Source: Hydrogenophilales bacterium CG_4_10_14_3_um_filter_63_21
Lineage (GTDB): Bacteria > Pseudomonadota > Gammaproteobacteria > Burkholderiales > Thiobacillaceae
DNA length: 39,671 nt
NCBI GenBank assembly: GCA_002784045.1
Contig: PFJX01000132.1
Span: 1-39,671 of the forward strand
Direction of reading: 5' to 3'
Of this stretch, positions 923 to 38,849 are shown in pieces. Each line of letters begins with the position of its first letter. The stretch's first letter is position 1. A program made the translations under genes and the position numbers. The notes below the pieces were generated by a model. It searched no databases, had not been told where the DNA came from, and was given only the letters and a program-made list of their open reading frames with translations.

Positions 923-1396
923 ATGTTTACGGGATCAACGCAGATGGCGCTGGACGGGAAGGGCCGCTTGGCCATTCCCGCGCGCCTGCGTGAGCGCCTG
1001 GCTGGCATTTGCGGCGGGCATCTCGTCTTGACGGCGGACCCAACCAGCGGTTGCCTGCTGCTTTACCCCTATCCCGAGTGGGAAAAAATCGCGGCCAAAC
1101 TCAATGCGCTGCCTAGCCTGGATCCCATCGCCAAGGAGTTGAAGCGGCTGGTGATTGGTTCCGCCGAGGAAGTGGAGCCGGACGGCGCCGGCCGCATTCT
1201 GATTCCGCCGATGCTGCGCCGCTTCGCCAAGCTGGAAAAAAGCGTGGCGCTGGTGGGCCAGGGCGAAAAGTTCGAGCTTTGGGACGATGCCTCCTGGCAA
1301 GGCCGGCTCGAACAAGCCGCGCACTTTCCCGAACAACTGGCGGTGGCCGCGCGTGACGGCACCTTGTCCGAAGGCCTCAAAGGCTTTTCTCTGTGA
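923..1396 (+). CDS. mraZ: Transcriptional regulator and cell division protein MraZ
   Basis: MraZ is a SpoVT/AbrB-fold DNA-binding protein that represses the dcw operon it heads. The 157-residue product opens MFTGSTQMALDGKGRLAIPA, the canonical first domain, and repeats the fold in the second half (DGAGRILIPPMLRRFA, about residues 90-105); each half carries a D-x3-R-x2-IP type motif. I chose the ATG at 923 although the frame stays open upstream to 845, because it gives the conserved N-terminus and has GGAGGAG at 906-912. Its stop TGA at 1394-1396 overlaps a GTG at 1393, which was probably the ancestral rsmH start. The TGGGN operator upstream supports autoregulation. Confidence 0.95.
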   Translation: MFTGSTQMALDGKGRLAIPARLRERLAGICGGHLVLTADPTSGCLLLYPYPEWEKIAAKLNALPSLDPIAKELKRLVIGSAEEVEPDGAGRILIPPMLRRFAKLEKSVALVGQGEKFELWDDASWQGRLEQAAHFPEQLAVAARDGTLSEGLKGFSL

Positions 1397-1467
1397 ACGT
1401 GGAGGCCGTCCATGCCCGGCGCCGGGCCGTCCCAAGCCGGGCATTGCGCCCCCTCGGGGGGCAGTGA
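1393..1467 (+). other. Leader ORF: old rsmH start cut by a repeat
   Basis: A GTG at 1393 overlaps the mraZ stop and is in frame with rsmH. Its first seven codons read VNVEAVH. The bases that follow in rsmH today (LPVLL, from 1558) would continue this into a normal RsmH N-terminus. Instead the repeat array begins at 1414 and an in-frame TGA at 1465-1467 ends a 24-codon peptide. A second GTG at 1471 opens a similar 23-codon peptide ending at TGA 1537-1539, and a third GTG at 1543 opens rsmH. This looks like a broken leader left by repeat insertion; whether it is translated is inference. Confidence 0.5.
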
Positions 1468-1557
1468 AACGTGGGGGCCGTCCATGCCCAGCGCCGGGCC
1501 GTCCCAAGCCGGGCATTGCGCCCCCTCGGGGGGCAGTGAAACGTGGGGGCCGTCCAT
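1414..1557 (-). repeat. Two tandem 72-bp palindromic repeat units
   Basis: Units at 1414-1485 and 1486-1557 are each exactly 72 bp and appear to differ at one base (GCCCGGC versus GCCCAGC at their starts). Read on the minus strand each has hairpin A (GCCCCC-CGA-GGGGGC) and hairpin B, whose 15-base loop is TTGGGACGGCCCGGC between the arms ATGCCCGGC and GCCGGGCAT. The same loop and the same 72-bp length recur in murC. Each unit ends (plus strand) with GTGGGGGCCGTCCAT, nearly a copy of the host sequence at 1399-1413, so host flank has been duplicated with it. Each unit carries one TGA in the rsmH frame. Confidence 0.9.
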
Positions 1558-2481
1558 CTTCCCGTGTTGCTGGGGGAAGCCGTCGCCGCCCTCGATTTGA
1601 AGGCCGACGGGATTTACCTGGATGCCACCTTCGGGCGTGGCGGCCACAGCCGGGAAATTCTCAAGAAACTGGGGCCACAGGGCAGGTTGATCGCGCTGGA
1701 TCGCGATCCAGCGGCGGTGGCTGTAGGCAAGGCTTGGAGCGACGCGCGTTTCCAGATGGTGCATGCGCCGTTCTCGGACTTGGGCCGCGCGGCAAATGCG
1801 GCCGGCGTGGCAAAAGTGGACGGGGTGTTGTTCGACCTAGGGGTGTCCAGCCCACAGTTGGATGAGGCCATCCGGGGCTTCAGCTTTCGTTTCGACGCCC
1901 CGCTGGATATGCGCATGGATACCAGTTGCGGCATGACCGCCGCGGAGTGGTTGAACCAGGCGCCGATAGAGGAGATTGCCCAAGTTGTCAGGGACTATGG
2001 CGAAGAGCGGTTTGCTAAGCAGGTTGCGCGGGCGATTGCGCAAGCAAGAGCAATTGCGCCGATCACAACGACCCGCCAGCTCGCCGTCGTGGTCGCCGGC
2101 GCCGTGCGCACCCGCGAGCGTGGCCAAGACCCGGCGACGCGGACCTTTCAAGCTGTGCGGATTTTCATTAACCGCGAGCTTGAAGAGATTGAACAGGCGC
2201 TACCGCAAGGCGCCGCTTTGCTGAAGACGGGCGGACGCCTGGTAGTGATCAGCTTTCATTCCCTGGAAGACCGAATGGTGAAACAGTTCATGCGCCGCGA
2301 ATCGGCGGGCGAGCAGGTGCCGCTGGAGATTCCCTTGCCCGCCTCCGCCCTGCGCGGCGGCTGCTTGGCGCTGATCGGCCGGGCGGTGAAGCCCGGTGAG
2401 CGTGAATCCAGGGAAAACCCGCGCGCGCGCAGCGCCACCCTGCGAGTGGCCGAGCGCACGGAGGTGCCATGGTCAAACTGA
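1543..2481 (+). CDS. rsmH: 16S rRNA (cytosine(1402)-N(4))-methyltransferase RsmH
   Basis: RsmH (MraW) methylates N4 of C1402 in the 30S decoding centre with S-adenosylmethionine. The 312-residue product has [10 protein letters not shown] at the start, the SAM-binding motif [14 protein letters not shown] at about residues 28-41, [14 protein letters not shown] at about 96-109, and the C-terminal family motif [13 protein letters not shown]. The GTG at 1543 is the only in-frame start that preserves the HLPVLL region without crossing a stop, and it lies inside the second 72-bp repeat unit. The ribosome site is poor (a G run at 1528-1533). Expression may rely on coupling from mraZ or the leader peptides. 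The gene overlaps ftsL by 13 bases. Confidence 0.95.
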
Positions 2482-2744
2482 ACCTGATCCTGGTCGCGGT
2501 GTTGGTCGCCGGTGCACTCTTCGTCGTCTCGGCGCGCCACCAGGCACGCAAATTGTTTATGGCGTTGCAGACGGAACAGGCGCGCGCCCGCGCCCTGGAT
2601 GTGGAATGGGGCCAGTTGCAACTGGAGATTTCTACCTGGCTGATGCACAACCGCGTGGAAGAAGTGGCACGCGACCGCTTGAAAATGGCGGTACCCGACC
2701 CGAAGCGCATTTATGTCCTGCATGCGCAGGGAACGCAGCCGTGA
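2469..2744 (+). CDS. ftsL: Cell division protein FtsL
   Basis: FtsL is a small bitopic membrane protein that joins FtsB and FtsQ and helps activate FtsWI at the septum. The 91-residue product has a short cytoplasmic start, one membrane segment at about residues 5-22 ([17 protein letters not shown]) and a periplasmic coiled coil with spaced leucines (residues 28-65), ending in the family's [11 protein letters not shown]-type tail. The ATG at 2469 lies inside the rsmH 3' end. The gene stops before a 142-bp repeat-filled gap that separates it from ftsI, unusual in a cluster where most neighbours overlap. Confidence 0.92.
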
Positions 2745-2886
2745 GCGTTCCGCGCGGCCGCCCGAAGCAACACGAAGCCCCCCTCGGTGGGGTGAAGCGG
2801 GGGTTTCGCGGAGGACTGCTCCGCGCCCGTGGAACGGGCCGGCTGTGCCAAGCCGGCCCGGGTTCGCGTAGCGCAAGGGGGGCCAA
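2745..2886. repeat. Composite palindromic repeat between ftsL and ftsI
   Basis: This 142-bp gap holds no gene but several hairpins. CGGGCCGGCT (2835-2844) and AGCCGGCCCG (2851-2860) are a perfect 10-bp stem with a 6-base loop. CGCGGAG (2807-2813) and CTCCGCG (2819-2825) are a perfect 7-bp stem. C and G runs near 2778-2803 can also pair. The minus strand reads GCCCCCCTTGCGCTACGC, resembling GCCCCCACGCTACGC of the 72-bp family, so it may be a relative or a mosaic. It leaves only the G run at 2877-2882 as a ribosome site for ftsI. Transcription presumably reads through. Confidence 0.7.
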
Positions 2887-4632
2887 ATGATTCCGCTGCG
2901 CAAGAGCCACCCCCTGCTGCACCTGGACCTGCAACGCTGGCGCATGCGCCTGGCCTTGGCGCTGTTGTTCGGAGGTTTTGCCGCCTTGTCGATGCGCGCG
3001 GTCTACCTGCAAGCCTGGAACAACGATTTCCTCAACGAGGAAGGTGAAAAGCGGGTACAGCGGGTGGCGCCCATTCCCGCTTATCGCGGCGTGATCAGCG
3101 ACCGCCGTGGTGAGCCGGTGGCGGTGAGCACCCCGGTGGAAACGATCTGGTTCAACCCACGGCAGGCCAATCCCAGCCCGGCGCAAATCCAGTCGCTGGG
3201 CAACATTCTGGAGCGCGATCCCGCCCAGATCGCGCGTCTGTTTACCGACAAAAGCCGTGGTTTCATCTATCTGGAACGACAGCTTCCGCCGCCCAAGGCG
3301 AACCAGATCATGGCGCTCAATATGGCCGGCGTGTTCGGCAAGCCGGAATACCGCCGCTACTACCCGGCCGGTGAGGTCATGGCGCACGTGCTGGGCATGA
3401 CCGATCTCGACGACCGTGGCCAGGAAGGCATCGAACTGGCCTTCCAGTCGTGGCTGGCCGGCGAGGAGGGCAGAAAGCGCGTGGTGCGCGACCGCCTCGG
3501 CAACGTGGTGGAAGTGCTGGAGCAGATCAAGCCGCCAAAGCCGGGGCGAGACCTGGTGCTGAGCCTGAATCAGCACATCCAGTATCTCGCCTATCGCGAA
3601 CTCAACGATGCGGTGGAGAAGAACCGCGCCCGCGCCGGCTCCGTGGTGGTGCTCGACGCGCGCACTGGCGAGATCCTGGCGCTTGCCAACACCCCCAGCT
3701 TCAATCCCAACAGCCGATCGACCTATACCCCGGAGCGGGTACGCAACCGCGCGGTCACCGATGTGTTCGAGCCCGGTTCCACGATGAAGCCGCTAATGGT
3801 CGCCGCCGCCCTGGATGCGCATGTCGTCGCCCCGCAAACCCCCATCGACACCGGCCCGGGCTGGTTCATCATCGGCGACAAGAAAATCACCGACACCCAT
3901 CCCAAGGGCGTGCTGACCGTCGCCCAGGCCATCCAGCTTTCCAGCAACGTGGCCGCCGCCAAAATCGCTCTGGAAATGCGGGGTGAGGACTACTGGCGAT
4001 TGCTCACCCGCGCCGGCCTCGGGGCGCCGCCACAGTCCGGCTTGCCCGGCGAGGTCAATGGTCGTCTGCGCCCGTTCGCCACCTGGCGGCCGATCGAGAA
4101 AGCCACGATGGCTTACGGCTACGGGCTCTCCGTCAGCCTGTTGCAACTGGCACATGCCTATACCGCCTTCGCCAACGCGGGCGTCATGCCCGCGCTGACC
4201 ACGCTGCGCCGCGAAGGCACCGCCAGCGGGGTGCGCGTCATGACCGCTGATACCGCCCGGGAAGTGCTGGCCATGCTGGAATTGGTTACCCAGAACGGCG
4301 GCACCGCGCCGATGGCGCGCGTGGCGGGTTACCGTGTCGCTGGCAAGACCGGCACCGCGCACAAGTTCAGGATCAACGGTGGCGGTTATGAGCCGGACAA
4401 ATACGTGAGTTCCTTCGTCGGTCTGGCGCCGGCCTCCAATCCGCGCCTGGTGGTGGCGGTGATGATCGACGAGCCGGGTGGCCGCGATTACTACGGCGGC
4501 CTGATTGCCGCCCCGGTGTTCTCACGGGTCATGGCGGGTGCACTGCGCTTCATGGCGCTGCCGCCGGATACCTCATTCGACAGCGACAGCGCCCCGCCGG
4601 GCGAGGCGCCCGTGGTGGCGGAATCGGTGTGA
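2887..4632 (+). CDS. ftsI: Septal peptidoglycan transpeptidase FtsI (PBP3)
   Basis: FtsI is the class B penicillin-binding protein that cross-links septal peptidoglycan with the FtsW glycosyltransferase. The 581-residue product has a short cytoplasmic start, one membrane anchor (about residues 20-38), a pedestal domain with R-G-x-I-x-DRRGEPVAVS near residues 67-80, and a transpeptidase domain. The three active-site motifs are visible: SxxK at S298-K301 (GSTMK), SSN at 352-354 and KTG at 487-489. The length is normal. The ATG at 2887 follows a G-rich stretch that belongs to the upstream repeat. The stop TGA overlaps the murE ATG by one base. Confidence 0.96.
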   Translation: MIPLRKSHPLLHLDLQRWRMRLALALLFGGFAALSMRAVYLQAWNNDFLNEEGEKRVQRVAPIPAYRGVISDRRGEPVAVSTPVETIWFNPRQANPSPAQIQSLGNILERDPAQIARLFTDKSRGFIYLERQLPPPKANQIMALNMAGVFGKPEYRRYYPAGEVMAHVLGMTDLDDRGQEGIELAFQSWLAGEEGRKRVVRDRLGNVVEVLEQIKPPKPGRDLVLSLNQHIQYLAYRELNDAVEKNRARAGSVVVLDARTGEILALANTPSFNPNSRSTYTPERVRNRAVTDVFEPGSTMKPLMVAAALDAHVVAPQTPIDTGPGWFIIGDKKITDTHPKGVLTVAQAIQLSSNVAAAKIALEMRGEDYWRLLTRAGLGAPPQSGLPGEVNGRLRPFATWRPIEKATMAYGYGLSVSLLQLAHAYTAFANAGVMPALTTLRREGTASGVRVMTADTAREVLAMLELVTQNGGTAPMARVAGYRVAGKTGTAHKFRINGGGYEPDKYVSSFVGLAPASNPRLVVAVMIDEPGGRDYYGGLIAAPVFSRVMAGALRFMALPPDTSFDSDSAPPGEAPVVAESV

Positions 4633-6185
4633 TGGACCCCAACGCCGTGATCTCGCACCTCATTGCCCAGTTGCGCGCCCTGGCCCCCGCCGCCCGCGGC
4701 ATGTGCGCCGACAGCCGGCGCCTGGCGGCGGGCGACGTATTTCTCGCCTACCCTGGCGGCGTCCATGACGGCCGCGCGCATATCGCCGCCGCGATTCGCG
4801 CCGGCGCCGCCGCCGTGCTGTGGGAACCGGCTAACCATATCTGGCAAGCCGGAGCGATTGCCAACCTGCCCGTCGCCGGTTTGCGGGAACAGGCCGCCGG
4901 TCTTGCCGCCGCCTGGTACGGTCAGCCCTCGCGGCACTTGTGGATGACTGGCATCACCGGCACCAACGGCAAGACCTCGGTCGCGCACTGGCTGTCCGCC
5001 GCCTGGACCCGGCTCGGGCGCAGGACGGCGGCCATCGGCACCCTCGGCAACGGCTTCCCCGGCGCATTGCAAGTCGCTAGCCACACCACCCCCGACGCGG
5101 TCAGTCTGCAAGTCCTGCTGGCCGGTTATCGCGATCTCGGCGCCGAAGGCGTGGCGATGGAAGTCTCCTCGCATGGCCTTGAACAGGGCCGCGTCGAAGG
5201 CGTGGCGTTCGACGTGGCGGTACTGACCAACCTGACACAGGATCATCTCGACTACCACGGTGACATGGCCAGCTATGCCGCCGCCAAGGCGCGCCTGTTC
5301 GCCTGGCCCGGCCTGAAGTGGGCGGTGCTCAACGCGGATGACGAACTCGGTGTTTCCCTGGAACGGCAACTGCGTGGCGGCGCGACTCGGGTGCTGAGCT
5401 ACGGGTTGGATAGGGTGCCCCCACGCTCGCAAAACCCGCTCGCTGCTCCCCGAGGGGGCGCAATGCCCGACTTGGGGCGGCCCGGCGCCGGGCATGGCGG
5501 CGACCTCCGCGCACGAATCCTGCGCGCCGACCGGAATGGGCTGCGCATGGAAATCGTCAGCCCTTGGGGCATGGGTGAATTGGCAAGCCCTCTGCTCGGT
5601 GAGTTCAACGCTTACAACTTGCTCGCCGCGCTCGGCGCCCTGCTCGCCGGTGGTGTGAAACTGGATGACGCGCTGGCCGCGCTGGCGAAGGCCGAGGCGG
5701 TACCGGGGCGGATGCAAAAGCTGGCAAGTGGAGCTGGGGAGCCCACGGTGATCGTCGATTTCGCCCATACCCCGGATGCCTTGGACAAGGTGTTGGCGGC
5801 GCTCAAGCCGCTCACCCGCGGCAAGCTGGTATGCGTGTTCGGCTGTGGCGGCGGCCGCGACCGGACCAAGCGGCCGTTGATGGGCGCGGCGGTGGCGGCG
5901 CGCGCCGATGTGGCCATCGTCACCAGCGACAACCCGCGCCATGAAGACCCGGCGGACATCATCGCCGACATCCTCGCCGGCATGCCGCCCGCCCAGTCCG
6001 CCAGCGTCGATCGCCGCGCGGCGATCCGCGCGGCGATCCAGGACGCCGGCCCGGAAGACATCGTCGTGCTGGCCGGCAAAGGACATGAGTCCTACCAGGA
6101 AATCAATGGCGTGAAGTACCCCTTCTCGGATCTGGAAGAAGCGCAAAAAGCGCTTGCGGAAAGGAACACCCATGCGCTTGCATGA
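4632..6185 (+). CDS. murE: UDP-MurNAc-tripeptide synthetase MurE (meso-DAP adding)
   Basis: MurE adds meso-diaminopimelate to UDP-MurNAc-L-Ala-D-Glu using ATP in the cytoplasm. The product is 517 residues from the ATG at 4632; a GTG one codon earlier is an alternative. The P-loop GTNGKTS begins at residue 110 (K114), and the DNPR motif of DAP-specific enzymes is present (SDNPRHEDP). Family members are nearer 490-500 residues: an extra stretch of about 27 residues (near residues 262-289, containing SQNPLAAPRGGAMPDLG) coincides with a palindromic repeat at 5417-5495. It lies between YGLD and ARILRADRNG, probably a surface loop in the central domain, so the enzyme could still work. The 3' end overlaps murF by 14 bases. 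Confidence 0.95.
   Translation: MDPNAVISHLIAQLRALAPAARGMCADSRRLAAGDVFLAYPGGVHDGRAHIAAAIRAGAAAVLWEPANHIWQAGAIANLPVAGLREQAAGLAAAWYGQPSRHLWMTGITGTNGKTSVAHWLSAAWTRLGRRTAAIGTLGNGFPGALQVASHTTPDAVSLQVLLAGYRDLGAEGVAMEVSSHGLEQGRVEGVAFDVAVLTNLTQDHLDYHGDMASYAAAKARLFAWPGLKWAVLNADDELGVSLERQLRGGATRVLSYGLDRVPPRSQNPLAAPRGGAMPDLGRPGAGHGGDLRARILRADRNGLRMEIVSPWGMGELASPLLGEFNAYNLLAALGALLAGGVKLDDALAALAKAEAVPGRMQKLASGAGEPTVIVDFAHTPDALDKVLAALKPLTRGKLVCVFGCGGGRDRTKRPLMGAAVAARADVAIVTSDNPRHEDPADIIADILAGMPPAQSASVDRRAAIRAAIQDAGPEDIVVLAGKGHESYQEINGVKYPFSDLEEAQKALAERNTHALA
5417..5495 (+). repeat. Palindromic repeat inserted in frame in murE
   Basis: The order is GCCCCCACG, then CTGCTCCCCGAGGGGGC (hairpin A with one T-G pair), then hairpin B: ATGCCCGAC, loop TTGGGGCGGCCCGGC, GCCGGGCAT. 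The loop differs by one base from that of the rsmH and murC units, and one arm is degenerate (GAC for GGC). It is a single copy with an extra CTCGCAAAACCCG-like stretch after the first block, and no unit-sized tandem copy follows. It contains no stop in the murE frame. The exact ends are uncertain because the uninserted ancestor is not known. Confidence 0.8.
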
Positions 6186-7515
6186 AGCCGCTTTGGCCCT
6201 CGATGCGCGCGCCGTGGGCGAAGACGTGGAATTCCACGCGGTATCCAGCGACAGCCGCGCGCTACCCGCCGGCTGCCTTTTCGTGGCCCTGAAAGGGCCG
6301 CGCTTCGATGGCCACGCTTATGCGGCTCAAGCACTTCGAGAAGGTGCCGCCGCCGTGATGGTGGCGGCCAGCGCCAATCTCGATGCTTCGCCCGCGCTGG
6401 TGGTCGATGACACCCGCATCGGCCTGGGGCGGCTCGCCGCCTGGCAGCGCTCGCGGATGCCAGCGCGGCTGGCTGCCATCACCGGCAGCAATGGCAAGAC
6501 CACGGTGAAGGAAATGCTCGCCGCCATCTGCGTGGCGGCGGCCGGGGAGAGCGCCGTGCTCGCCACCGCCGGCAATCTCAATAACGACATCGGCATGCCC
6601 CTCACCTTGTTGAAGTTGGCGCCCCAACACCGCTATGCCGCCATCGAAATGGGCATGAACCACCCCGGCGAAATCGCCACCCTGAGCGAGATTGCCCACC
6701 CCGATGTGGCCTTGGTCAACAACGCCCTGCGCGCCCACCTGGAAGGCCTCGGCAGCGTCGCGGCGGTGGCGCGCGCCAAGGGCGAAATCTACGCCGGCCT
6801 GAAAGAGGGCGGCATCGCCATCGTCAACGCCGACGACCCCCATGCCGATCTGTGGCGAAAAATGGCCGGCGGCCACCAGGTGCTGAGCTTCGGCTTCGCG
6901 GAAGGCGCCGACGTGCACATCACCCCTGACGCCTCACGCCTCACGCTCAAAACGCCTGCCGGGCGCATCGAAACCACCTTGCGAGTCCCCGGCATCCACA
7001 ACCTGCGCAACGCCGCCGCCGCCGCCGCCGCCGCGCTGGCGCTGGGCATATCGGTGGACGCGGTGGCGCGCGGCCTGGCTGCCTATGCCGGCAGCAAGGG
7101 GCGTCTACAAGTTCATCCCTGCATCCTCGGTGCCACCCTGATCGACGACACCTACAACGCCAATCCCGATTCCGTGGCCGCCGCCATTCAGGTGCTGGCG
7201 GCGCGGCCGGGCCTGCGCATCCTGGTGCTGGGCGATATGGGCGAACTCGGGGCCACCGCCGCCGCGTTGCATCGGGAAGTGGGCGAGCGTGCTCGCGCCG
7301 CCGGCATCGACCGCCTGCTCTGCCTGGGCGAACTGTCGCTCAACACGGTTCAAGGGTTCGGCAAGGGGGCGATGCACTTCGAACGCATCGAGGAACTGCT
7401 GGCGGAAATCGAATGCGCTCTTGATGTGGATGTGACCGTGCTGGTCAAGGGCTCTCGGTTCATGAAGATGGAACGGGTGGTGCAGTCGTTCATGGAGAAC
7501 CAAACATGCTCCTGA
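6172..7515 (+). CDS. murF: UDP-MurNAc-pentapeptide synthetase MurF
   Basis: MurF adds the D-Ala-D-Ala dipeptide made by Ddl to UDP-MurNAc-tripeptide, the last cytoplasmic precursor step. The product is 447 residues, usual for the family. The P-loop GSNGKTT is at residues 105-111 (K109). [12 protein letters not shown] and the C-terminal [10 protein letters not shown] and LGDMGELG motifs are typical of MurF. I chose the ATG at 6172 rather than the in-frame start at 6154 because GGAAAGGA ends about 8 bases upstream of it and the N-terminus [10 protein letters not shown] fits the family. It overlaps murE by 14 bases and mraY by 10, so translation is probably coupled. Confidence 0.95.
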
Positions 7516-8591
7516 TGCTCGCCAAGTGGCTCGGCCAGGACATCCGCCTGTTCAACGTCTTCAATTACATCACCCTGCGCGCGGTGTTGGCGGCGCTGAC
7601 CGCGCTACTCATTTCCTTCGCCGTCGGCCCCTGGATGATCCGCAAGCTCACCCAACTGAAAGTCGGCCAGCCGGTGCGCGACGATGGCCCGCAAACCCAC
7701 CTGGCCAAGGCTGGCACGCCGACCATGGGCGGCGCCCTGATTCTCGCCGCGGTCGCGATCACTACCCTGTTGTGGGCGGACCTGGCCAACCGCTACGTCT
7801 GGATCGCCCTGCTGACCCTGGTCGGCTTCGGCGCTATCGGCTGGGTGGATGACTGGCGCAAGGTGGTGGCGAAGAACCCCCGCGGCCTGGCTTCGCGCTG
7901 GAAATATTTCTGGCAGTCGCTGCTCGGCTTCGCGCTGGCCGGCTGGCTGGCCTGGTCGGCGCATCTGCCGGCGCAGACCGAGCTGATCGTGCCGTTTTTC
8001 AAGCATCTGGTGATCCCTCTGGGAGTAACGGGCTTCGTGCTGCTGGCCTATTTCGTCATCGTTGGCAGCAGCAACGCGGTGAACCTGACCGACGGCGCTG
8101 ATGGCCTGGCCATTCTGCCCACGGTGATGGTGGCGGGTGCCCTGGCCATCTTCGCCTACGTGGCGGGCCACGCGGTGTTTTCCAAATACCTGGGGCTGCC
8201 GCACATCCCCGGCGCCGGTGAACTGGTGGTGTTTTGCGCCGCCCTGGTGGGCGCGGGCCTGGCCTTCCTCTGGTTCAACGCCTACCCCGCGGAAGTGTTC
8301 ATGGGCGACGTCGGCGCCCTGGCCCTGGGGGCGGCCCTGGGGGTGGTAGCGGTGATCGTGCGCCAGGAAATCGTGCTGTTCATCATGGGCGGCCTGTTCG
8401 TCGCCGAAACCATCTCGGTCATGGTCCAGGTTGGCTCGTTCAAGCTGCGCGGCAAGCGGGTGTTCCTGATGGCGCCGATCCACCATCACTTCGAGAAGAA
8501 GGGCTGGAAGGAGACCCAGGTGGTGGTCCGCTTCTGGATCATCAGCATGGTGCTGGTGTTGATTGGCCTGTCGACGTTGAAACTACGATGA
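7506..8591 (+). CDS. mraY: Phospho-MurNAc-pentapeptide transferase MraY
   Basis: MraY moves phospho-MurNAc-pentapeptide from UDP onto undecaprenyl phosphate, making lipid I in the inner membrane. The 361-residue product has the usual ten or so membrane segments. Conserved cytoplasmic motifs are visible: KAGTPTMGG near residue 70, the Asp pair in [29 protein letters not shown] and the histidine cluster [13 protein letters not shown] near the C-terminus. The length is normal and no repeat insertion is seen, unlike several neighbours. The ATG at 7506 lies inside the end of murF. Confidence 0.97.
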
Positions 8592-8601
8592 GGAGCGCGG
8601 C

Positions 8602-10134
8602 GTGAGGGCTGAGGGGTTGAATCTTTCGGGATGCCGGGCGCTGGTCGTCGGCCTTGGCGACACGGGTGCCGCCTGTGTGCGCTGGCTGCTGGAACACGAT
8701 GCCCTGGTGCGCGGCACGGATACCCGTGACGAGCCCCCCCATGCACAGCACCTGCGCGAGGCCTTCCCGGAAGTAGCGCTGAGCCTGGGCGGATTTGACC
8801 CGGCGGATTTTGCCTGGGCCGATCTCATCGTCGCCAGCCCCGGCGTGCCGCTTGCGTCCTCGGAACTGCAAACCGCGATCAAATTCGGCAAGGAAGTGGT
8901 GGGCGACGTAGAACTGTTCGCCCGTGCGATTGCTGGAAAAAACGCGGGCAAGCAGCCCAAGGTCATCGCCATCACGGGTTCCAATGGCAAAAGCACGGTG
9001 ACCAGCCTGGTCGGCCATCTGTGTGCCGCCGTGGGATTGGAAACCGCGGTGGCCGGCAACATCGGCCTGCCGGTACTGGATGCGCTGGATAACTGCGAAA
9101 CCCTGGGATGCGACCCCGACGTGTGGGTGCTGGAACTGTCCAGCTTCCAACTGGAAACCACCCACAGCCTGCGGCCCGATGCCGCTACCGTGCTCAATAT
9201 TTCGCAGGACCACATGGACCGTTACGCCAGTCTGGACGACTACGCGGCGGCAAAGGCGCGGGTGTTCGGGGTAGAGGTCAAGGGCAAGGGGCCAGGGGCC
9301 AGGGAAAAACCCTGTATCCAGGTGTTGAACCGGGATGACCCGATGGTGATGGCGATGGCCATTCCCGGCCAACCGCAGTGGACCTTCGGCATCATGGACA
9401 AGCCTCCTCTTGCCCCTGGCTTCTTCGGCCTGGCCACCCACAAAAACCGCCTCTGGCTGAGCGAGGGCGACGAAGTTCTGTTGCCGGTGGACAAGTTGCC
9501 CATCGCCGGCCTGCACAACGCCGCCAACGCCCTGGCGGCGCTGGCGCTATGCCGCGCCATCGGCCTGCCTTACGCCGGCCTGATCCCCGCCCTGAAAACC
9601 TTCACGGGCCTGCCGCACCGGGTGCAGCGGGTAGGCGAGGTGGCGGGACGCATCTTCTACGACGATTCCAAGGGCACCAACGTCGGCGCGACAGCGGCCG
9701 CCTTGCTCGGTTTCACCGTGCCGGTGGTGCTGATCGCCGGCGGCGATGGCAAAGGCCAGGATTTCTCGCCGCTGAAGGAGGCCGTGAAAAACGCCCGCGC
9801 CGTGGTGCAGATTGGCCGCGATGGGCCACTGATTGAACAAGCCATTGCCGGCGCCTGCCCGGTCTATCGCGCGGAGAGCATGGAGGAGGCCGTGAATCAG
9901 GCCTTCCAGCTAACGAAGTCGGGCGACGCGGTACTGCTGTCGCCGGCCTGTGCCAGTTGGGACATGTTCCGCAACTATGAACATCGTGCCGAGGTTTTCA
10001 TCGGCGCCGTGGAAGTACTGAAGGTTCTGCGTGGCGAGAGCCGCCGCCAGCAGGAACGGCGCTTCCGCAGCGCCGCGATCCTGAGCGAAGAGCGGAGGCA
10101 ACGGGATCGCCGGAGTAAACAGCATGTTTCATAA
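8602..10134 (+). CDS. murD: UDP-MurNAc-L-alanine-D-glutamate ligase MurD
   Basis: MurD adds D-glutamate to UDP-MurNAc-L-Ala. The product is 510 residues, longer than the usual 440-470. The nucleotide-binding motif GSNGKST, the ELSSFQLE motif and the C-terminal SPACASWDMFRNYEHRAEVF motif are all present. Two stretches look inserted: VKGKGPGARE near residue 230 and PPLAPGFFG near residue 270, whose DNA is a pair of inverted low-complexity blocks. The C-terminus carries an Arg-rich tail of about 35 residues overlapping the start of ftsW. I chose the GTG at 8602 because AGGAG at 8591-8595 lies 6 bases upstream and it gives the Rossmann start CRALVVGLGDTG. Confidence 0.94.
   Translation: MRAEGLNLSGCRALVVGLGDTGAACVRWLLEHDALVRGTDTRDEPPHAQHLREAFPEVALSLGGFDPADFAWADLIVASPGVPLASSELQTAIKFGKEVVGDVELFARAIAGKNAGKQPKVIAITGSNGKSTVTSLVGHLCAAVGLETAVAGNIGLPVLDALDNCETLGCDPDVWVLELSSFQLETTHSLRPDAATVLNISQDHMDRYASLDDYAAAKARVFGVEVKGKGPGAREKPCIQVLNRDDPMVMAMAIPGQPQWTFGIMDKPPLAPGFFGLATHKNRLWLSEGDEVLLPVDKLPIAGLHNAANALAALALCRAIGLPYAGLIPALKTFTGLPHRVQRVGEVAGRIFYDDSKGTNVGATAAALLGFTVPVVLIAGGDGKGQDFSPLKEAVKNARAVVQIGRDGPLIEQAIAGACPVYRAESMEEAVNQAFQLTKSGDAVLLSPACASWDMFRNYEHRAEVFIGAVEVLKVLRGESRRQQERRFRSAAILSEERRQRDRRSKQHVS
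9281..9420. repeat. Inverted low-complexity blocks within murD
   Basis: AGGGCAAGGGGCCAGGGG at 9281-9298 (with a second GGGGCCA overlapping it) and CTCTTGCCCCTGGC near 9407-9420 are inverted with respect to each other: the complement of the second reads GCCAGGGGCAAGAG. Both fall where the MurD protein appears longer than its family. They keep the frame open. They could be two independent insertions of a purine-rich minisatellite or the ends of one event; the sequence between them reads as ordinary MurD. Confidence 0.4.
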
Positions 10135-11284
10135 CGCGGCGCTCAAGCGCACCGCGCTGACCCCTTATGACTGGGGCCTGGTGTTTGTCGTCACTGGCCT
10201 CCTGATGATTGGCCTGGTGATGGTGTTCTCGGCATCGTCCAGCGTGGCCGAAACCCGCTCCGCCGCGCACGAGCACACCTATTATCTGGTGCGCCATAGC
10301 GTATACATGGTCATCGGCCTGGCCGCGGGTTATGCCGCCTTCCAGGTGCCGACGCCGCTCTGGCAGAAACTGTCACCGAGCCTGTTCATCGCCGGGGCGG
10401 TGGTACTGCTGCTGGTGCTGATCCCCTTCATCGGCAAAGAAGTGAACGGCAGCCGGCGCTGGATTCCGCTGGGGCCACTGGGCAATTTTCAGCCCTCCGA
10501 GTTCATGAAGTTCGCCACCATTCTCTACGCGGCCGACTACACCGTGCGCCGGGCGGCGCACATGCAGAACCTGGCCAGAGGCTTCCTGCCGATGTTCCTG
10601 GTGATGCTGGGAGTGGGCGGTTTATTGCTGGTGGAACCCGACTTCGGCGCGCTCGTGGTGATCTTCGCCATCGCCCTGGCCGTGCTGTTCCTGGGCGGCT
10701 TCAATGCCCGTCTGTTCTTCGGCCTGTTCGGCCTCCTGATGGTCGGTTTCGTGCTCATGGTGGTGCTGTCACCCTACCGCATGGCGCGGGTTACCAGCTA
10801 TTTCTACCCCTTCGATGACCCCTACGGCGCCGGCTATCAACTGTCCAACGCCCTGATCGCCCTGGGCCGCGGCGAGATCATGGGGGTTGGTCTCGGCGAC
10901 AGCGTCGGCAAGCTGTTTTACCTGCCCGAGTCTTATACCGACTTCCTGCTCGCGGTGATCGGCGAGGAGCTGGGGTTGCTCGGCGTGCTCGCGGTGATCG
11001 GCCTGTTCGCCTGGCTGACCTGGCGCGCCTTCTCGATCGGCTGGCAGGCCAGCTTGATGGGGCGCAATTACGCCGCCCTGGTGGCGCAAGGCGTCGGTGT
11101 CTGGATCGGCCTGCAATCGTTCATCAACATGGGCGTCAACCTGGGACTGCTACCCACCAAAGGCCTCACCCTGCCGTTGATGAGCTACGGCGGCTCCGGC
11201 ATCGTCGCCAATTGCCTGGCGCTGGCACTGTTGCTGCGGGTGGATTACGAGAACCGCTGCCTGATGAAGGGGAAGAAAGCATGA
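10124..11284 (+). CDS. ftsW: Septal peptidoglycan glycosyltransferase FtsW
   Basis: FtsW is the SEDS-family glycosyltransferase that polymerises lipid II at the septum with FtsI. The 386-residue product has about ten membrane segments. Typical motifs are [10 protein letters not shown] in the first segment, [34 protein letters not shown], and the C-terminal [26 protein letters not shown] region. The ATG at 10124 lies within the murD 3' end. The stop TGA overlaps the murG ATG as ATGA. No repeat insertion is visible here. Confidence 0.96.
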
Positions 11285-12399
11285 GTAGCGAGTCGCGAGT
11301 CGCGGGAGGCAAGGCATGTGCTGCTCGCCATTCACGCACCGCACTCGTCATGGCCGGGGGCACCGGCGGCCATGTGATGCCCGCGCTGGCGGTGGCGGAA
11401 GCCCTGCGCGGCGACGGTTGGCGCGTGGTGTGGCTGGGTACCCATGCCGGCATGGAAGCGAAGCTGGCGGTGGCCAGGGGTTTCGAGATGGCCTGGGTGA
11501 AAGTGGCCGGGGTGCGCGGCAAGGGGCTGGCCACCAAACTGCTGCTGCCATACAACCTGCTGATCGCTTTCTGGCAGGCGGCGCGAGCGATCTTCCGCGA
11601 GCGCCCCGATGTCGCCTTGGGGCTGGGCGGCTATGTCGCCTTCCCTGGCGGCATGATGGCTGTGCTACTGAACAAGCCGCTGGTGATCCACGAACAGAAC
11701 GCCATCGCCGGGTTGACCAACAAAATCCTGGCGCGCCTCGCCGACCGCGTGCTGCTGGGTTTGCCTCTCGCCATCCCGCTTTCTTCCAACGAAGAATGGG
11801 TCGGCAACCCGGTGCGTCCCGAGATCGCTGCCTTGCCGGCACCGGAACAACGTCTGGGCGGGCGCGAAGGCCCGCTGCGTTTGCTGGTGATCGGCGGTTC
11901 GCTGGGGGCGGCGGCGCTGAACCAGATGATTCCGCAAGCGTTGAAGTTGCTGCCGGTGGCGCGGCGTCCCGTGGTGCGCCACCAGTCCGGCGCGCGGCAC
12001 CTGGAAGTGCTCAAGCGCAACTATGCCGACGCGGGGGTCGTGGCCGAACCGCTCGCCTTCATCGACGACATGGCCGCCGCCTACGCCTGGGCGGACGTGG
12101 TGATCTGCCGCGCCGGTGCTTTGACGGTTGCGGAAATCGCGGCCGCCGGCCTGGCCGCGCTGTTCGTGCCGTTCCCGTTCGCGGTGGACGACCATCAGAC
12201 CGCCAACGCCGCCTTCCTCGCCGATCAGGGCGCGGCCTGGCTGATACAGCAGCAGGACCTCAGCCCGGAAAAGCTGGCCGCGTGGCTACGTGGCCTCACC
12301 CGCGAGGAACTGCTCGGCCACGCGGTGAAAGCGCGCGCGCTGGCGAAGCCGGATGCGACCTCGCGGGTGGCGGAAGTCGTCAAGGAGTTGGGGAAATGA
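11281..12399 (+). CDS. murG: Lipid II synthase MurG (GlcNAc transferase)
   Basis: MurG transfers GlcNAc from UDP-GlcNAc to lipid I, giving lipid II on the inner face of the membrane. The 372-residue product has the N-terminal [15 protein letters not shown] glycine-rich loop, [12 protein letters not shown], and the C-terminal sugar-nucleotide-binding motifs [17 protein letters not shown] and [15 protein letters not shown] chose the ATG at 11281, which overlaps the ftsW stop, over an earlier in-frame start inside ftsW. The 23 residues before MAGGTGGH ([17 protein letters not shown] and more) are longer than usual. Their DNA contains GAGTCGCGAGTCGCG, a short direct repeat, suggesting a small insertion at the gene start. 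Confidence 0.95.
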
Positions 12400-12554
12400 A
12401 ACACAAGGTCAACCGCATCCACTTCGTCGGCAAAGGCGGAGTCGCCACGAGCAGGGAGCAGTGCCTGCCGCCTGGCGGCAGGTGCGACCGGCCACGAGTG
12501 GCGCGGGCCGCCGATGACCGCTGCAGTCTGATCGGAGTGGGCCGTGAAGCATAA
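12396..12554 (+). pseudogene. Duplicated murC 5' fragment
   Basis: An ATG at 12396 overlapping the murG stop opens a 52-codon frame whose first 12 residues ([12 protein letters not shown]) equal the MurC N-terminus. Bases 12405-12432 are identical to 12553-12580 inside murC, and the similarity extends over about 44 bp. After FVGKGG the frame runs into unrelated sequence (12440-12543), which contains the near-perfect hairpin CCTGCCGCC-T-GGCGGCAGG at 12464-12482, and it ends at TAA 12552-12554, 11 bases into murC. This is probably the original murC start, disconnected by an insertion that duplicated the gene start. It might still serve as a coupling leader. Confidence 0.75.
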
Positions 12555-14181
12555 GGTCAACCGCATCCACTTCGTCGGCATCGGCGGCGCCGGCATGAGC
12601 GGTATCGCCGAGGTACTGGTCAATCTGGGCTACCAGGTTTCCGGCAGCGATGGCGCCACCAACGCGGCCACCCAGCGGCTGGCCGACATGGGCGCGACCG
12701 TGTTTCAGGGCCATGCCGCCGAGCACATCGCGGGCGCGAGTGTCCTGGTGATTTCCAGCGCCATCAAGGAAGACAACCCGGAGGTGCAAGCCGCGCGCGC
12801 GGCGCACATTCCGGTGGTGGCGCGCGCCATGATGCTGGCCGAGTTGATGCGTTTCAAACAGGGCATCGCCATCGCCGGCACCCACGGCAAGACCACCACC
12901 ACCAGCCTGATCGCCAGCGTGCTGGGCGAGGCCGGGCTGGACCCCACTTTCGTGATCGGTGGCAAGCTCTTGGCGGCCGGCGTGAATAGCCCCCACGCTA
13001 CGCTGCCCCCCGAGGGGGCGGCACGCCAGCCTTGGGACGGCCCGGCGGCTGGCGTGAACAGCCCCCACGCTACGCTGCCCCCCGGGGGGGCGGCACGCCA
13101 GCCTTGGGACGGCCCGGCGGCTGGCGTGAACAGCCCCCACGCTACGCTGCCCCCCGAGGGGGCGGCACGCCAGCCTTGGGACGGCCCGGCGGCTGGCGGC
13201 AACGCGCGCTTGGGGCAAGGCAAATGGCTGGTGGCGGAAGCCGACGAATCGGATGCCTCGTTTCTGCATCTGTCGCCGGTGGTGTCCATTGTCACCAACA
13301 TCGACGCCGACCACATGGAAACGTATGGCCATGACTTCGAGCGCCTGAAGTCGGCCTTCGTCGAATTCCTCCATCGCCTGCCGTTCTGGGGCATGGCCAT
13401 CCTGTGCGCCGACGATCCCGTCGTGCGCGCCCTGCTGCCGCGCATCGACAAGCCGGTGATGACTTACGGCACGGGCGAAGACTGCGCCATCCAGGCGGTG
13501 AATATTCGTGCCGAGAACGGCCGCATGGCCTTCACCGCCCTGCGCAATGGGGTGCGCTCGCCAGTGGACATCACCCTTAACCTGCCAGGCCAACACAACG
13601 TGCTCAATGCCCTGGCGGCGGTCGCCGTGGCCTGGGAACTGCAAGTGCCGGATGCCGCGCTACAACGCGCGCTGGCCAATTTCAGCGGGGTGGGGCGGCG
13701 CTTCCAGCGCTATGGAGAGATCACCTTGCCCGCTGGCGGGAAAACCGGGGCAAAGCGCCGTTTCACCCTGATTGACGACTACGGCCATCACCCGGTGGAA
13801 ATGCGGGCCACCCTTGACGCCACGCGCGGCGCCTTCCCCGGCCGCCGTTTGGTGCTGGCGTTCCAGCCGCACCGCTATACCCGCACCCGTGACCTGTTCG
13901 AGGACTTCGTGCAGGTGTTGTCGCAGGCCGACGCGGTACTGCTCACCGAGGTCTATGCGGCCAGCGAACAAGCCATCATCGCCGCCGATGGCCGCGCCCT
14001 CTCTCGTGCCTTGCGCGTGGCCGGCCACGTGGAACCGGTGTTCGTGGAAGACGTGAATGATCTGCCCGCCGCCCTGGCCGATTTCGTGCGCGACGGCGAC
14101 GTGGTGCTAACCATGGGCGCCGGTTCCATCGGCCAGGTGCCCGGGAAACTCGTGGAGCTGGCGTGCGGGGGGGGCACATGA
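12544..14181 (+). CDS. murC: UDP-MurNAc-L-alanine ligase MurC with 72-residue repeat insertion
   Basis: MurC adds L-alanine to UDP-MurNAc, the first peptide step. The product is 545 residues against about 465-490 for relatives. It begins at a GTG in the second copy of the duplicated gene start, because only this copy continues into [17 protein letters not shown]. The P-loop GTHGKTT is at residues 112-118 (K116). Next come [10 protein letters not shown] (to residue 148), then three tandem 24-residue repeats (149-220), then ARLGQGKW and the conserved [14 protein letters not shown]. Removing the repeats restores a normal MurC length and alignment. The insertion sits in the central ATPase domain loop before the EADESD motif. 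The stop overlaps the murB ATG, preceded by a run of eight G. Confidence 0.95.
12982..13197 (+). repeat. Three tandem 72-bp palindromic units inside murC
   Basis: Units start at 12982, 13054 and 13126, each exactly 72 bp (24 codons) and almost identical: unit 1 has GTGAATAG for GTGAACAG, and unit 2 has G for A in the hairpin A loop (Glu to Gly). Each contains GCCCCC-CGA-GGGGGC and the hairpin CACGCCAGCC, loop TTGGGACGGCCCGGC, GGCTGGCGTG. The loop matches the rsmH-leader unit exactly, while the stem differs at several paired positions. All units are open in the murC frame. The bases before unit 1 (GGCCGGCGTGAA-like) resemble the end of each unit, as expected if host flank was duplicated with the element. 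Confidence 0.95.
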
Positions 14182-37346: not shown

Positions 37347-38849
37347 ATGAAACTTCGCACCCTGCCCCTGCTGCTCGCCCTGCACGCAGCCCCCCTGCTG
37401 GCCGCCGGCCCGGTCGTGCCCGATCCCATGCAGGCCATGCAAATGGCGCTGCGCTATTACCAGATGGCCGCCAGCGCCGGCGATGCCGAGGCGCAAACCA
37501 AGATGGGCTGGCTGTTCGAACAAGGCATGGGGGTGGCCAAGGATTTCACCCAGGCCGCCAAGTGGTATGAACTCGCCGCCAAACAGAACGAGCCGATCGG
37601 CCTTTACAACCTGGGCCTGCTGTTCCTGCGCGGCGACGGCGTCACCAAGAACGCCGACCAGGCCGCGCGGTTGATGACCGGCGCGGCCGAACTCAACCTG
37701 GCCGCCGCCCAGTCGCAACTGGCCACCATGTACGAGAAAGGCCTCGGTGTCCCGGTCAACCTGGAAGCCGCCTTTGCCTGGAACAAGCGGGCAGCGGAAC
37801 TTGGCGACGTGCCGGCGCAGAACAATCTGGGCATCAAATACGCCTATGGCCTGGGCACCCCGACGGCTTACCCGGAAGCGGTGAAATGGTTTACCAAGGC
37901 CGCCGAGGCCGGCAACGCCGAAGCCCAGGGCAACCTCGGCCTGATCTACAAGGACGGCCTCGGCGGCGTGAAGCAGGATCTGCCCACCGCCGCCAACTGG
38001 CTGGCCCTGGCGGGCAGCCAGGGCCATGTCGCTTCGCAGAACCGCCTCGGCTGGATGTTCGAGAAAGGCCAGGGCATTCCGAAAAACCTGGTGGAAGCCG
38101 GCCGCTGGTTCCGCCTGGCCGCCGAAGCCGGTGACGCGCCTTCCGCCACCCACCTGGGCTGGCTGCTGGAAACCGGCGCCCTGGGCCAGGACAACGTGAG
38201 CGCCAACATCGCCGCCGCCCTGCCCTGGTATGAGCGCGCCGCCGCCGCCGGTGACGCCGCCGCCCAGAACAACCTGGGCCGCCTCTACCGCGAAGGCCAG
38301 GGGGTGGCCGCCGACTACGCCAAGGCGCGCGAGTGGTTGCTGAGGGCCAGCGCGAAGAACGAACCGCTCGCCTGGTACAACCTGGCGCTGATGGCGGAAC
38401 AGGGGCAGGGCCAGGAACGCAACGAATCCGAAGCCCTGGCGCTTTACGCCAAGGCCGCCGAACAAGGCGTGGTGCTGGCGCAAAGCCGCCTCGGCTGGCT
38501 ATTGCAGAAGAACGGCAAGATCGAGGACGCCGTGCGCTGGCTCGGCAAGGCCGCCGAGGCCGGCGACATCACCGCCCAGAACAACCTGGGGGTGATCCTG
38601 GAACAGGGCCAGGGCATGGCCAAGAACCTGAACGAGGCCGCGCGCTGGTATCGCAAGGCAGCCGAAGCCGGCGACAAGGTGGCCCAGCACAACCTGGGCG
38701 TGCTCTACCGCGACGGCCTCGGGGTGGAAAGGAACGAAAATGAAGCCCTCGCCTGGTTCCAGAAATCCGCCGAACAAGGCTATGCCAAGGCGCAACTCAA
38801 CCTCGGCCAGTTGTATGAAAAACTAGCGACGCAGAAGGAAGCGAAGTAA
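37347..38849 (+). CDS. Sel1-repeat (SLR) periplasmic protein
   Basis: The 500-residue product has a Sec signal peptide (MKLRTLPLLLALHAAPLLAA) and then about 13 Sel1-like repeats of roughly 36 residues that fill residues 28-495. The consensus is EAxxWYxKAAEAGDxxAQNNLGxxYxxGxGV; repeat 10 is shortened. Such solenoids bind proteins and act as scaffolds, often at the cell envelope. It begins 16 bases after the tonB stop with AGAGGA upstream, so it is likely co-transcribed with exbB-exbD-tonB. No enzyme domain is present. A role with the long TonB in the periplasm is suggested by position only. Confidence 0.93.
   Translation: MKLRTLPLLLALHAAPLLAAGPVVPDPMQAMQMALRYYQMAASAGDAEAQTKMGWLFEQGMGVAKDFTQAAKWYELAAKQNEPIGLYNLGLLFLRGDGVTKNADQAARLMTGAAELNLAAAQSQLATMYEKGLGVPVNLEAAFAWNKRAAELGDVPAQNNLGIKYAYGLGTPTAYPEAVKWFTKAAEAGNAEAQGNLGLIYKDGLGGVKQDLPTAANWLALAGSQGHVASQNRLGWMFEKGQGIPKNLVEAGRWFRLAAEAGDAPSATHLGWLLETGALGQDNVSANIAAALPWYERAAAAGDAAAQNNLGRLYREGQGVAADYAKAREWLLRASAKNEPLAWYNLALMAEQGQGQERNESEALALYAKAAEQGVVLAQSRLGWLLQKNGKIEDAVRWLGKAAEAGDITAQNNLGVILEQGQGMAKNLNEAARWYRKAAEAGDKVAQHNLGVLYRDGLGVERNENEALAWFQKSAEQGYAKAQLNLGQLYEKLATQKEAK

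Follow-up and report, generated by a model that had tools for sequence, protein, structure and literature searches.

A hairpin repeat inserted in frame in cell-wall genes of a Hydrogenophilales bacterium, probably a non-autonomous mobile element of Betaproteobacteria

Introduction

The Beta-proteobacterial repeat element (BRE) was named by Hot et al. in 2011 (PMC3110155). According to the available sections of that report, full copies in Bordetella are 75–91 bp long, GC-rich, and arranged in tandem with a variable number of units. Up to 29 copies are given for other Betaproteobacteria (Polaromonas sp. JS666), some of them within coding sequences, and mobility was suspected. The hosts are Bordetella, Polaromonas, Rhodoferax, Acidovorax, Delftia and Azoarcus, with chromosomal copies only. 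Here we describe a hairpin repeat in a stretch of 39,671 nucleotides (contig C86, the whole of which is referred to as the window) from the 3.03-Mb, 174-contig genome of a Hydrogenophilales bacterium, where it is located in and next to genes of cell-wall synthesis. The repeat is matched to BRE by description (size, tandem habit, hosts, coding copies), not by letters, and is very probably the same element. The family is then very probably not new, as a tandem betaproteobacterial repeat of this size was already named in 2011; what is new is the places where it is found and a better view of its anatomy.

Other small repeats are relevant for comparison. Rickettsia palindromic elements (RPEs) are small palindromic repeats that extend the reading frames of conserved protein genes and are tolerated there, and ERIC and similar miniature inverted-repeat transposable elements (MITEs) are small, have no gene of their own, and are known to form in-frame fusions (PMC2229807, available sections). 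GTAG/CGTC-tagged REPs and REPtrons are palindromic and mostly intergenic, and are sometimes found within genes, where in-frame cases are known (PMC3733652, available sections). In the literature searched, the phrase 'beta-proteobacterial repeat element' was found only in PMC3110155, the motif strings of our element gave no text match, and the available part of the R. ferrireducens genome paper has nothing on it.

Our analysis indicates that the repeat in the window is, with good probability, a non-autonomous mobile hairpin repeat of Betaproteobacteria, and that the insertions that survive are those that keep translation going.

Repeat units in the window

The units in the window are as follows.

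1393–1396, plus strand: GTGA overlap of the mraZ stop codon (TGA, 1394–1396) and the GTG that opens the first leader mini-ORF (open reading frame; VNVEAVHARRRAVPSRALRPLGGQ*)
1414–1485, minus strand: repeat unit in the mraZ-rsmH leader; loop at 1421–1435; in-frame TGA at 1465–1467 (rsmH frame)
1486–1557, minus strand: repeat unit in the mraZ-rsmH leader; loop at 1493–1507, with one broken stem pair; in-frame TGA at 1537–1539; spans the likely rsmH restart codon, GTG 1543
1543–2481, plus strand: rsmH (MraW), 3' of the leader units
4629–6185, plus strand: murE, which carries the single copy; matches Mur ligase domains in Pfam
about 5417–5495, plus strand: single divergent copy within murE; 84 bp net, in frame, relative to related genomes; loop TTGGGGCGGCCCGGC at 5472–5486
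12544–14181, plus strand: murC, host gene; insert at residues ~144–215, predicted to be an unstructured loop of the ATPase domain
12982–13053, plus strand: murC repeat unit 1; loop at 13032–13046; arms ACGCCAGCC/GGCTGGCGT
13054–13125, plus strand: murC repeat unit 2; loop at 13104–13118; hairpin A with one changed base
13126–13197, plus strand: murC repeat unit 3; loop at 13176–13190

The element body is roughly 70–90 bp long and consists of hairpin A (CCCCC-nA-GGGGG) and hairpin B, in which a nearly fixed 15-base loop stands between arms that differ among lineages and copies yet remain complementary. The 72-bp units (two at 1414–1557, three at 12982–13197) and the divergent copy in murE, all described in the original prediction, were recovered by reading of the sequence, by a repeat search, and by Tandem Repeats Finder (TRF). 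Hairpin A and the loop are also as described there: the loop is exact at positions 1421, 1493, 13032, 13104 and 13176, whereas the copy at 5472 has a single mismatch. The stems do differ between loci while keeping their pairing, except for one broken pair at the loop at 1493–1507 (3' arm GCTGGGCAT). At three mismatches, the window contains 10 loop matches, a number reached by 8 of 100 shuffled sequences and so not beyond chance, and the case in the window rests on the exact loop copies. Tandem units within one locus are 95–97% alike, and local duplication has therefore certainly happened.

Insertions within genes and empty orthologous sites

Copies of the element are present or absent at orthologous sites, and they form tandem arrays at some of these sites. 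The insert in murC consists of three 72-bp units (216 bp) and is in frame. It is missing from all 22 other genomes of the genus, whose MurC proteins match residues 1–148 or 1–149 of the window protein and then residue 216 onward. The 216 extra bases are likewise lacking in all 21 same-genus genomes that were aligned as DNA. For the window's own genome, no other strong full-length match to MurC is listed. In an AlphaFold2 model of this protein (built with 15 sequences, mean pLDDT, or predicted local distance difference test, of 70.7), residues 140–223 have pLDDT values below 50 and almost no regular structure, with a single three-residue strand, and most of the remainder folds. The best stretch of the Pfam domain Mur_ligase_M begins past the insert, at residue 237. 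The insert is most simply viewed as a predicted floppy loop in the ATPase domain.

The insert in murE (named by us from the gene order, presumably correctly; its domains are those of Mur ligases) is 84 bp long and in frame, and none of 17 relatives has the element there. In mpl, as we take this gene to be, the element is found at the same codon in two of 20 genomes (84 bp in the window's own genome and 129 bp in G013), and the other 18 sites are empty, with no clear target duplication visible. Mpl is a paralogue of MurC, at about 30% identity. Elsewhere in the same gene cluster, related genomes have further in-frame inserts in murF (81 bp in both G007 and G013, 84 bp in G006) and in murD (78 bp in G017). 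In G021 (locus L205) the element is located in murC near residue 400, in the minus orientation. The letters of murF, and of murG below, are our assumption from the gene order. All of the net in-gene lengths measured (216, 84, 84, 129, 81, 81, 84 and 78 bp) are divisible by three, matching what survival would demand.

On the other hand, the original prediction that the units sit in frame holds for murC and murE but not for rsmH. Each of the two rsmH units has an in-frame TGA, and they are therefore not in frame with this gene. The frame that opens at GTG 1393 gives two short ORFs and then rsmH, which probably restarts at GTG 1543. The units here form a chopped leader between mraZ (stop at 1394–1396) and this likely restart. 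A single copy of the element is found at the same mraZ-rsmH place in genome G019.

Other inserts are found in the same genes. In the murE gene of G019 (L222), the codon that holds the element in the window is occupied by a different in-frame insert of 96 nt (the ERPDANMHALVAQASRLHSALGAGEDACATAGQ region). The region of murC near residue 400 is a permissive site, with other repeat-rich inserts in L214, L220, L221 and L225, for example CCCCTTGCCCCTTG runs.

Distribution of the family

A search of the source genome for the loop finds a dispersed family, as had been proposed. With the backwards pattern as the control, the pattern TTGGG[AG]CGGCCCGGC, which permits G at position six, is found 37 times in the genome, compared to once backwards; TTGGGACGGCCCGGC is found 10 times. 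With up to two mismatches there are 105 matches (37 exact and 17 with one mismatch) against 79 backwards, and the signal of the family thus sits in the exact and near-exact copies. Three sub-types can be distinguished by eye in this genome: T1, with variable arms, which includes the copies in the window; T2, with arms CAAGTCGTTC/GAACGACTTG; and T3, with arms CAAGAAACAC/GTGTTTCTTG. Of the 41 same-genus copies with the full pattern, 12 belong to T2 or T3. Units are 72 bp long in the window, 81 bp on contig C125, and 75–77 bp in Bordetella, and are in tandem.

A scan of named genomes found at least 118 stretches. Hosts among the matches listed are Burkholderia, Variovorax, Hydrogenophaga, Polaromonas, Rhodoferax, Acidovorax, Delftia, Achromobacter, Bordetella genomosp. 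4 (15 full copies), Pigmentiphaga, a Rhodocyclaceae bacterium, and several uncultured betaproteobacteria. In a sample of the order, the full-element pattern is found in 30 of 399 genomes and 21 of 159 genera; in a sample of the phylum it is found in 13 of 398 genomes, all 13 from the order of the window. The backwards control gave none in either sample. Among the sampled genomes, the element is seen in one order only, which would be the order containing the named betaproteobacterial hosts. Copy number can differ greatly within a genus: for the exact pattern, the genomes of genus g34 range from eight with no copy, through one with 2, to three with 34, 80 and 83.

A piece of the element is present in 6 of 72,556 plasmid records, and two of the three plasmid copies with nearby annotation lie inside an annotated gene (for phosphoglycerate kinase and for a Fic family protein). 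No element match was found among 50,697 phage records, and carriage by phages was rejected for these records. No Rfam family matches the window at its gathering score.

The proposal of a mobile-looking family is supported by the clean pattern of presence and absence at orthologous sites (murC occupied in 0 of 22 relatives, murE in 0 of 17, mpl filled in 2 of 20). Two findings had been named in advance as evidence against such a family, namely a loop motif present nowhere else in the genome, and the same sites occupied in distant relatives. Both were examined, and neither refuted it.

Mini-cistrons at stop-start junctions

One class of copies fills the space between two genes precisely and forms a short ORF from start to stop codon. 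To be counted, a copy had to be traversed by an ORF at whose ends an upstream frame of at least 60 codons stops and a downstream frame of at least 60 codons starts. The copies were sampled non-randomly, with 128 of 234 coming from the scan of named genomes. Among 229 distinct full copies, 25 are such mini-cistrons, with ORFs of 25–38 codons, each joined to a gene on either side by stop-start coupling. Controls at eight shifted positions gave 0–1 of 213–226 copies each, and the antisense control gave 7 of 229. For coupling at the right end alone, the numbers are 35 of 229, compared to 1–5 for shifted positions and 12 for antisense. The stop-start overlap is ATGA or GTGA at the left end of 14 and at the right end of 13 of the 25 mini-cistrons.

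The overlap motif [AG]TGA is more frequent than at shifted positions on the left of the element (63 of 229 copies, against 14–22 of ~220) and hardly so on the right (31 against 13–26). It is present on both sides in 20 copies, against 1–4 when shifted. In all seven copies that have both motifs and long frames on both sides, the motifs are spaced 2 mod 3, the spacing that ends the mini-ORF at the next start. Without the requirement for long frames, 12 of the 20 pairs are spaced 2 mod 3, 6 are spaced 0, and 2 are spaced 1.

Two junctions allow comparison between relatives. At the murG-murC junction, where the element is found in G002 and G004, 21 genomes show a bare ATGA in 6 cases, ATGA-element-ATGA in 2, and other inserts in 13. 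The junction 5' of a radical-SAM-like gene (amrS, as we judge by eye) is filled in G006, and G011, with a 95% identical protein, has a single ATGA. Within the 140 nt examined, the element or a remnant is found there in 3 of 23 genomes (G006, G019 and G017). The copies of G019 and G017 (L345, L347) are altered, one with other sequence inside and one apparently shortened between hairpin A and the right end. G011 is without a copy, though the less similar G019 and G017 keep theirs. ATGA stands on both sides of the element at these two junctions.

The murG-murC ATGA junction (12397–12600 in the window; L205, L213–L232) is a hot spot in its own right. The 13 other inserts are 53–170 nt net and include GTAGGTTGGGCAAAGCGC-type, TGTAGCGCAGGC-type and further palindromes. 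In the window, this junction has a partial copy of the murC start, 148 bp apart.

The mini-cistron class is the least expected part of the analysis. No account of this stop-start habit was found in the literature searched, in which few searches were aimed at it, so this is weak evidence that it is new here. Survival bias may account for the class with no special insertion rule. Tentatively, and as a possibility we favor less than the broader mobile repeat, the element may be a translation-compatible module. It would enter ATGA overlaps and end up flanked by ATGA on both sides, its own short ORF starting at the old start codon and stopping at the new one. In one subfamily, the 3' arm would supply a ribosome-binding site and the 5' arm its complement, and insertion into an operon would then be silent, or tunable through hairpin B.

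Pairing of the hairpin arms

The arms of hairpin B covary. Over the seven loop-proximal positions, 145 distinct arm pairs have a mean of 5.78 Watson-Crick pairs. When the arms are dealt among the copies (500 deals), the mean is 2.97, with a standard deviation of 0.10 and a maximum of 3.24. The arms look lineage-specific, being TTTTTGCC/GGCAAAAA in Bordetella and GCCCGCC/GGCGGGC in the genus of the window.

The original prediction took covariation as selection on structure. The arms do covary while pairing, and selection is the likeliest source, but this step is not the only one that leads to matched arms. Quasi-palindrome correction, a hairpin-templated mutation process, keeps inverted repeats matched, and arms that are alike within a lineage and different between lineages are consistent with it. 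Alone, however, it explains neither a fixed loop with changing arms nor new insertions, and we regard it as a doubtful source of the covariation.

Copying of the arms from the target was also considered, as suggested by a left flank that resembles the 3' arm (in murC and in the gene on C125, by eye presumably cobC) and by the mpl gene of G013. It is rejected as a general rule, since similar arms are found at unconnected sites and seem to follow the lineage.

Search for a mobilising enzyme

REP and REPIN sequences are moved by RAYT, a Y1 tyrosine transposase, and our element could belong with them, being a short palindromic repeat in a genus that also carries GTAG-type palindromes. Genes matching Y1_Tnp are indeed present, with three in the window's own genome and seven more in 6 of 8 other high-copy genomes (one of them below the curated cut-off, leaving 5 of 8 above it). 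However, the expectation of a RAYT partner with the same hairpin in its flanks was not borne out. The 10 Y1_Tnp loci, from seven genomes, were examined over about 1.5 kb on each side (or a shorter stretch where the contig ends), and hairpin A and the left end of the element are missing from all of them. Only locus L316 has a loop match in its flank, with two mismatches and no hairpin A. RAYT is rejected as the partner for the loci seen. In addition, no Y1_Tnp match was found in two genomes that carry 15 and 34 copies, the latter 92% complete, and inspection of copies by eye, not a count, showed no GTAG/CGTC foot. Mobilisation by RAYT is therefore unlikely.

At L316 and L319, in two high-copy genomes, the Y1 transposase genes are flanked by AAGACCTGACCCC-type motifs (by eye), which may be a repeat family of their own.

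Possible regulatory roles

The element could instead be kept for regulation, as a terminator, a leader peptide, or a sequestered ribosome-binding site, rather than being selfish DNA. Arms with a T-run give a terminator-like structure (hairpin A followed by TTTTT) in 54 of 229 copies, 30 of them in Bordetella loci. Where the arms contain GGAGG, GGGAG or AGGAG, an ATG follows within 14 nt in 11 of 12 copies, compared to 35 of 217 others (Fisher p = 8e-8). Moreover, a B. pertussis RNA with BRE in it, bprJ, is altered in a mutant of RNase III (PMC8386462, available sections). On the other hand, the sites are not conserved between close relatives, as a site-bound function would require. Ribosome-site arms are not significantly tied to a left ATGA or GTGA (6 of 11 against 48 of 177, p = 0.08), and the murC copy gives an insertion that is disordered in the model. 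Regulation is an improbable reason for the keeping of the element.

Proposed mechanism

It is very improbable that the copies stem from old duplications within a locus or are relics that diverged by vertical descent: apart from the near-identical tandem units, this would suit the murF copies common to G007 and G013 and the amrS copies common to G006, G019 and G017, but it is largely refuted by the empty sites (22 of 22, 17 of 17 and 18 of 20), and is opposed as well by the exact loops dispersed over many loci and by copy numbers from 0 to 83 within one genus.

For the non-autonomous mobile repeat that we prefer, an enzyme acting in trans would recognize folded hairpin B by its loop. Such recognition would keep the loop fixed and leave the arms free, provided that they pair. 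Insertion would be broad in target, and the copies visible today would be the survivors, found in frame within genes, as mini-cistrons at stop-start junctions, and in intergenic regions, where they would often be terminator-like with a T-run. Tandem units would arise later, by slippage or unequal exchange. MurC is predicted to tolerate its 72 extra residues as the floppy loop described above.

Several points weigh against this explanation. Transposition was not observed directly, and the mobilising gene was not found, with none of the 10 Y1_Tnp loci examined carrying the element. There is no constant target-site duplication, as ATGA is duplicated at two junctions and nothing is visible at mpl. 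Some differences in presence and absence could reflect loss or conversion instead of gain, as in the case of amrS. The search pattern itself accounts in part for the constancy of the loop and hairpin A across hosts, and the genome is a draft of 174 contigs. Finally, the predicted folding energies are not beyond those of shuffled sequences (z = -1.33 as RNA and -0.43 as DNA for a murC unit), being usual for such GC-rich sequence.

With this analysis, a repeat family that was named in 2011 with no function gains an anatomy, a host range, and empty sites in essential genes. A testable rule is suggested by which a repeat may colonize operons and leave them intact. Tolerant places in MurC, MurE, MurF, MurD and Mpl are marked by natural in-frame insertions, and the question of which enzyme moves repeats that lack genes comes down to finding a protein that recognizes the 15-base loop.

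The window has one other region of repeats, at 37874–38813. They are imperfect, partly 108 bp apart, read approximately EAAEAGDxxAQxNLG, and resemble what we take to be Sel1-type repeats.

Comparison with known repeat systems

The closest described system is BRE. It shares with our element its size (72 bp being slightly short), GC-richness, tandem arrays, copies in coding sequences and suspected mobility, and five hosts (Bordetella, Polaromonas, Rhodoferax, Acidovorax and Delftia). The available sections of the BRE account (PMC3110155) have no variable arms around a fixed loop, mini-cistrons, or in-frame comparisons with empty sites. BRE is reported there as chromosomal only, whereas pieces of our element are found in six plasmid records. 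In the genus of Bordetella genomosp. 4, lexA was found in 8 of 9 loci, and in these no copy is located within 330 nt on either side of it, a result that is silent on the identity with BRE.

The original comparison with RPEs holds for the mode of insertion. In-frame inserts in conserved genes are absent from the orthologues, first in murC and murE and also in mpl, murF and murD. RPEs differ in size (105–146 bp, according to the available sections of PMC2229807) and in hosts (Rickettsia), and the two were compared by description. Compared to GTAG/CGTC REPs, our element has no foot seen by eye and no tyrosine transposase was found flanked by it. Compared to MITEs, it has internal hairpins and an inconstant target duplication, and no terminal inverted repeats were seen, in the course of an inspection that was not systematic. 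The attC sites of integrons are similar only in the way they work. They are recognized in the folded form of a strand whose letters vary and whose pairing is kept, and their boxes and extrahelical bases are conserved. Our element instead has a fixed loop between variable arms.

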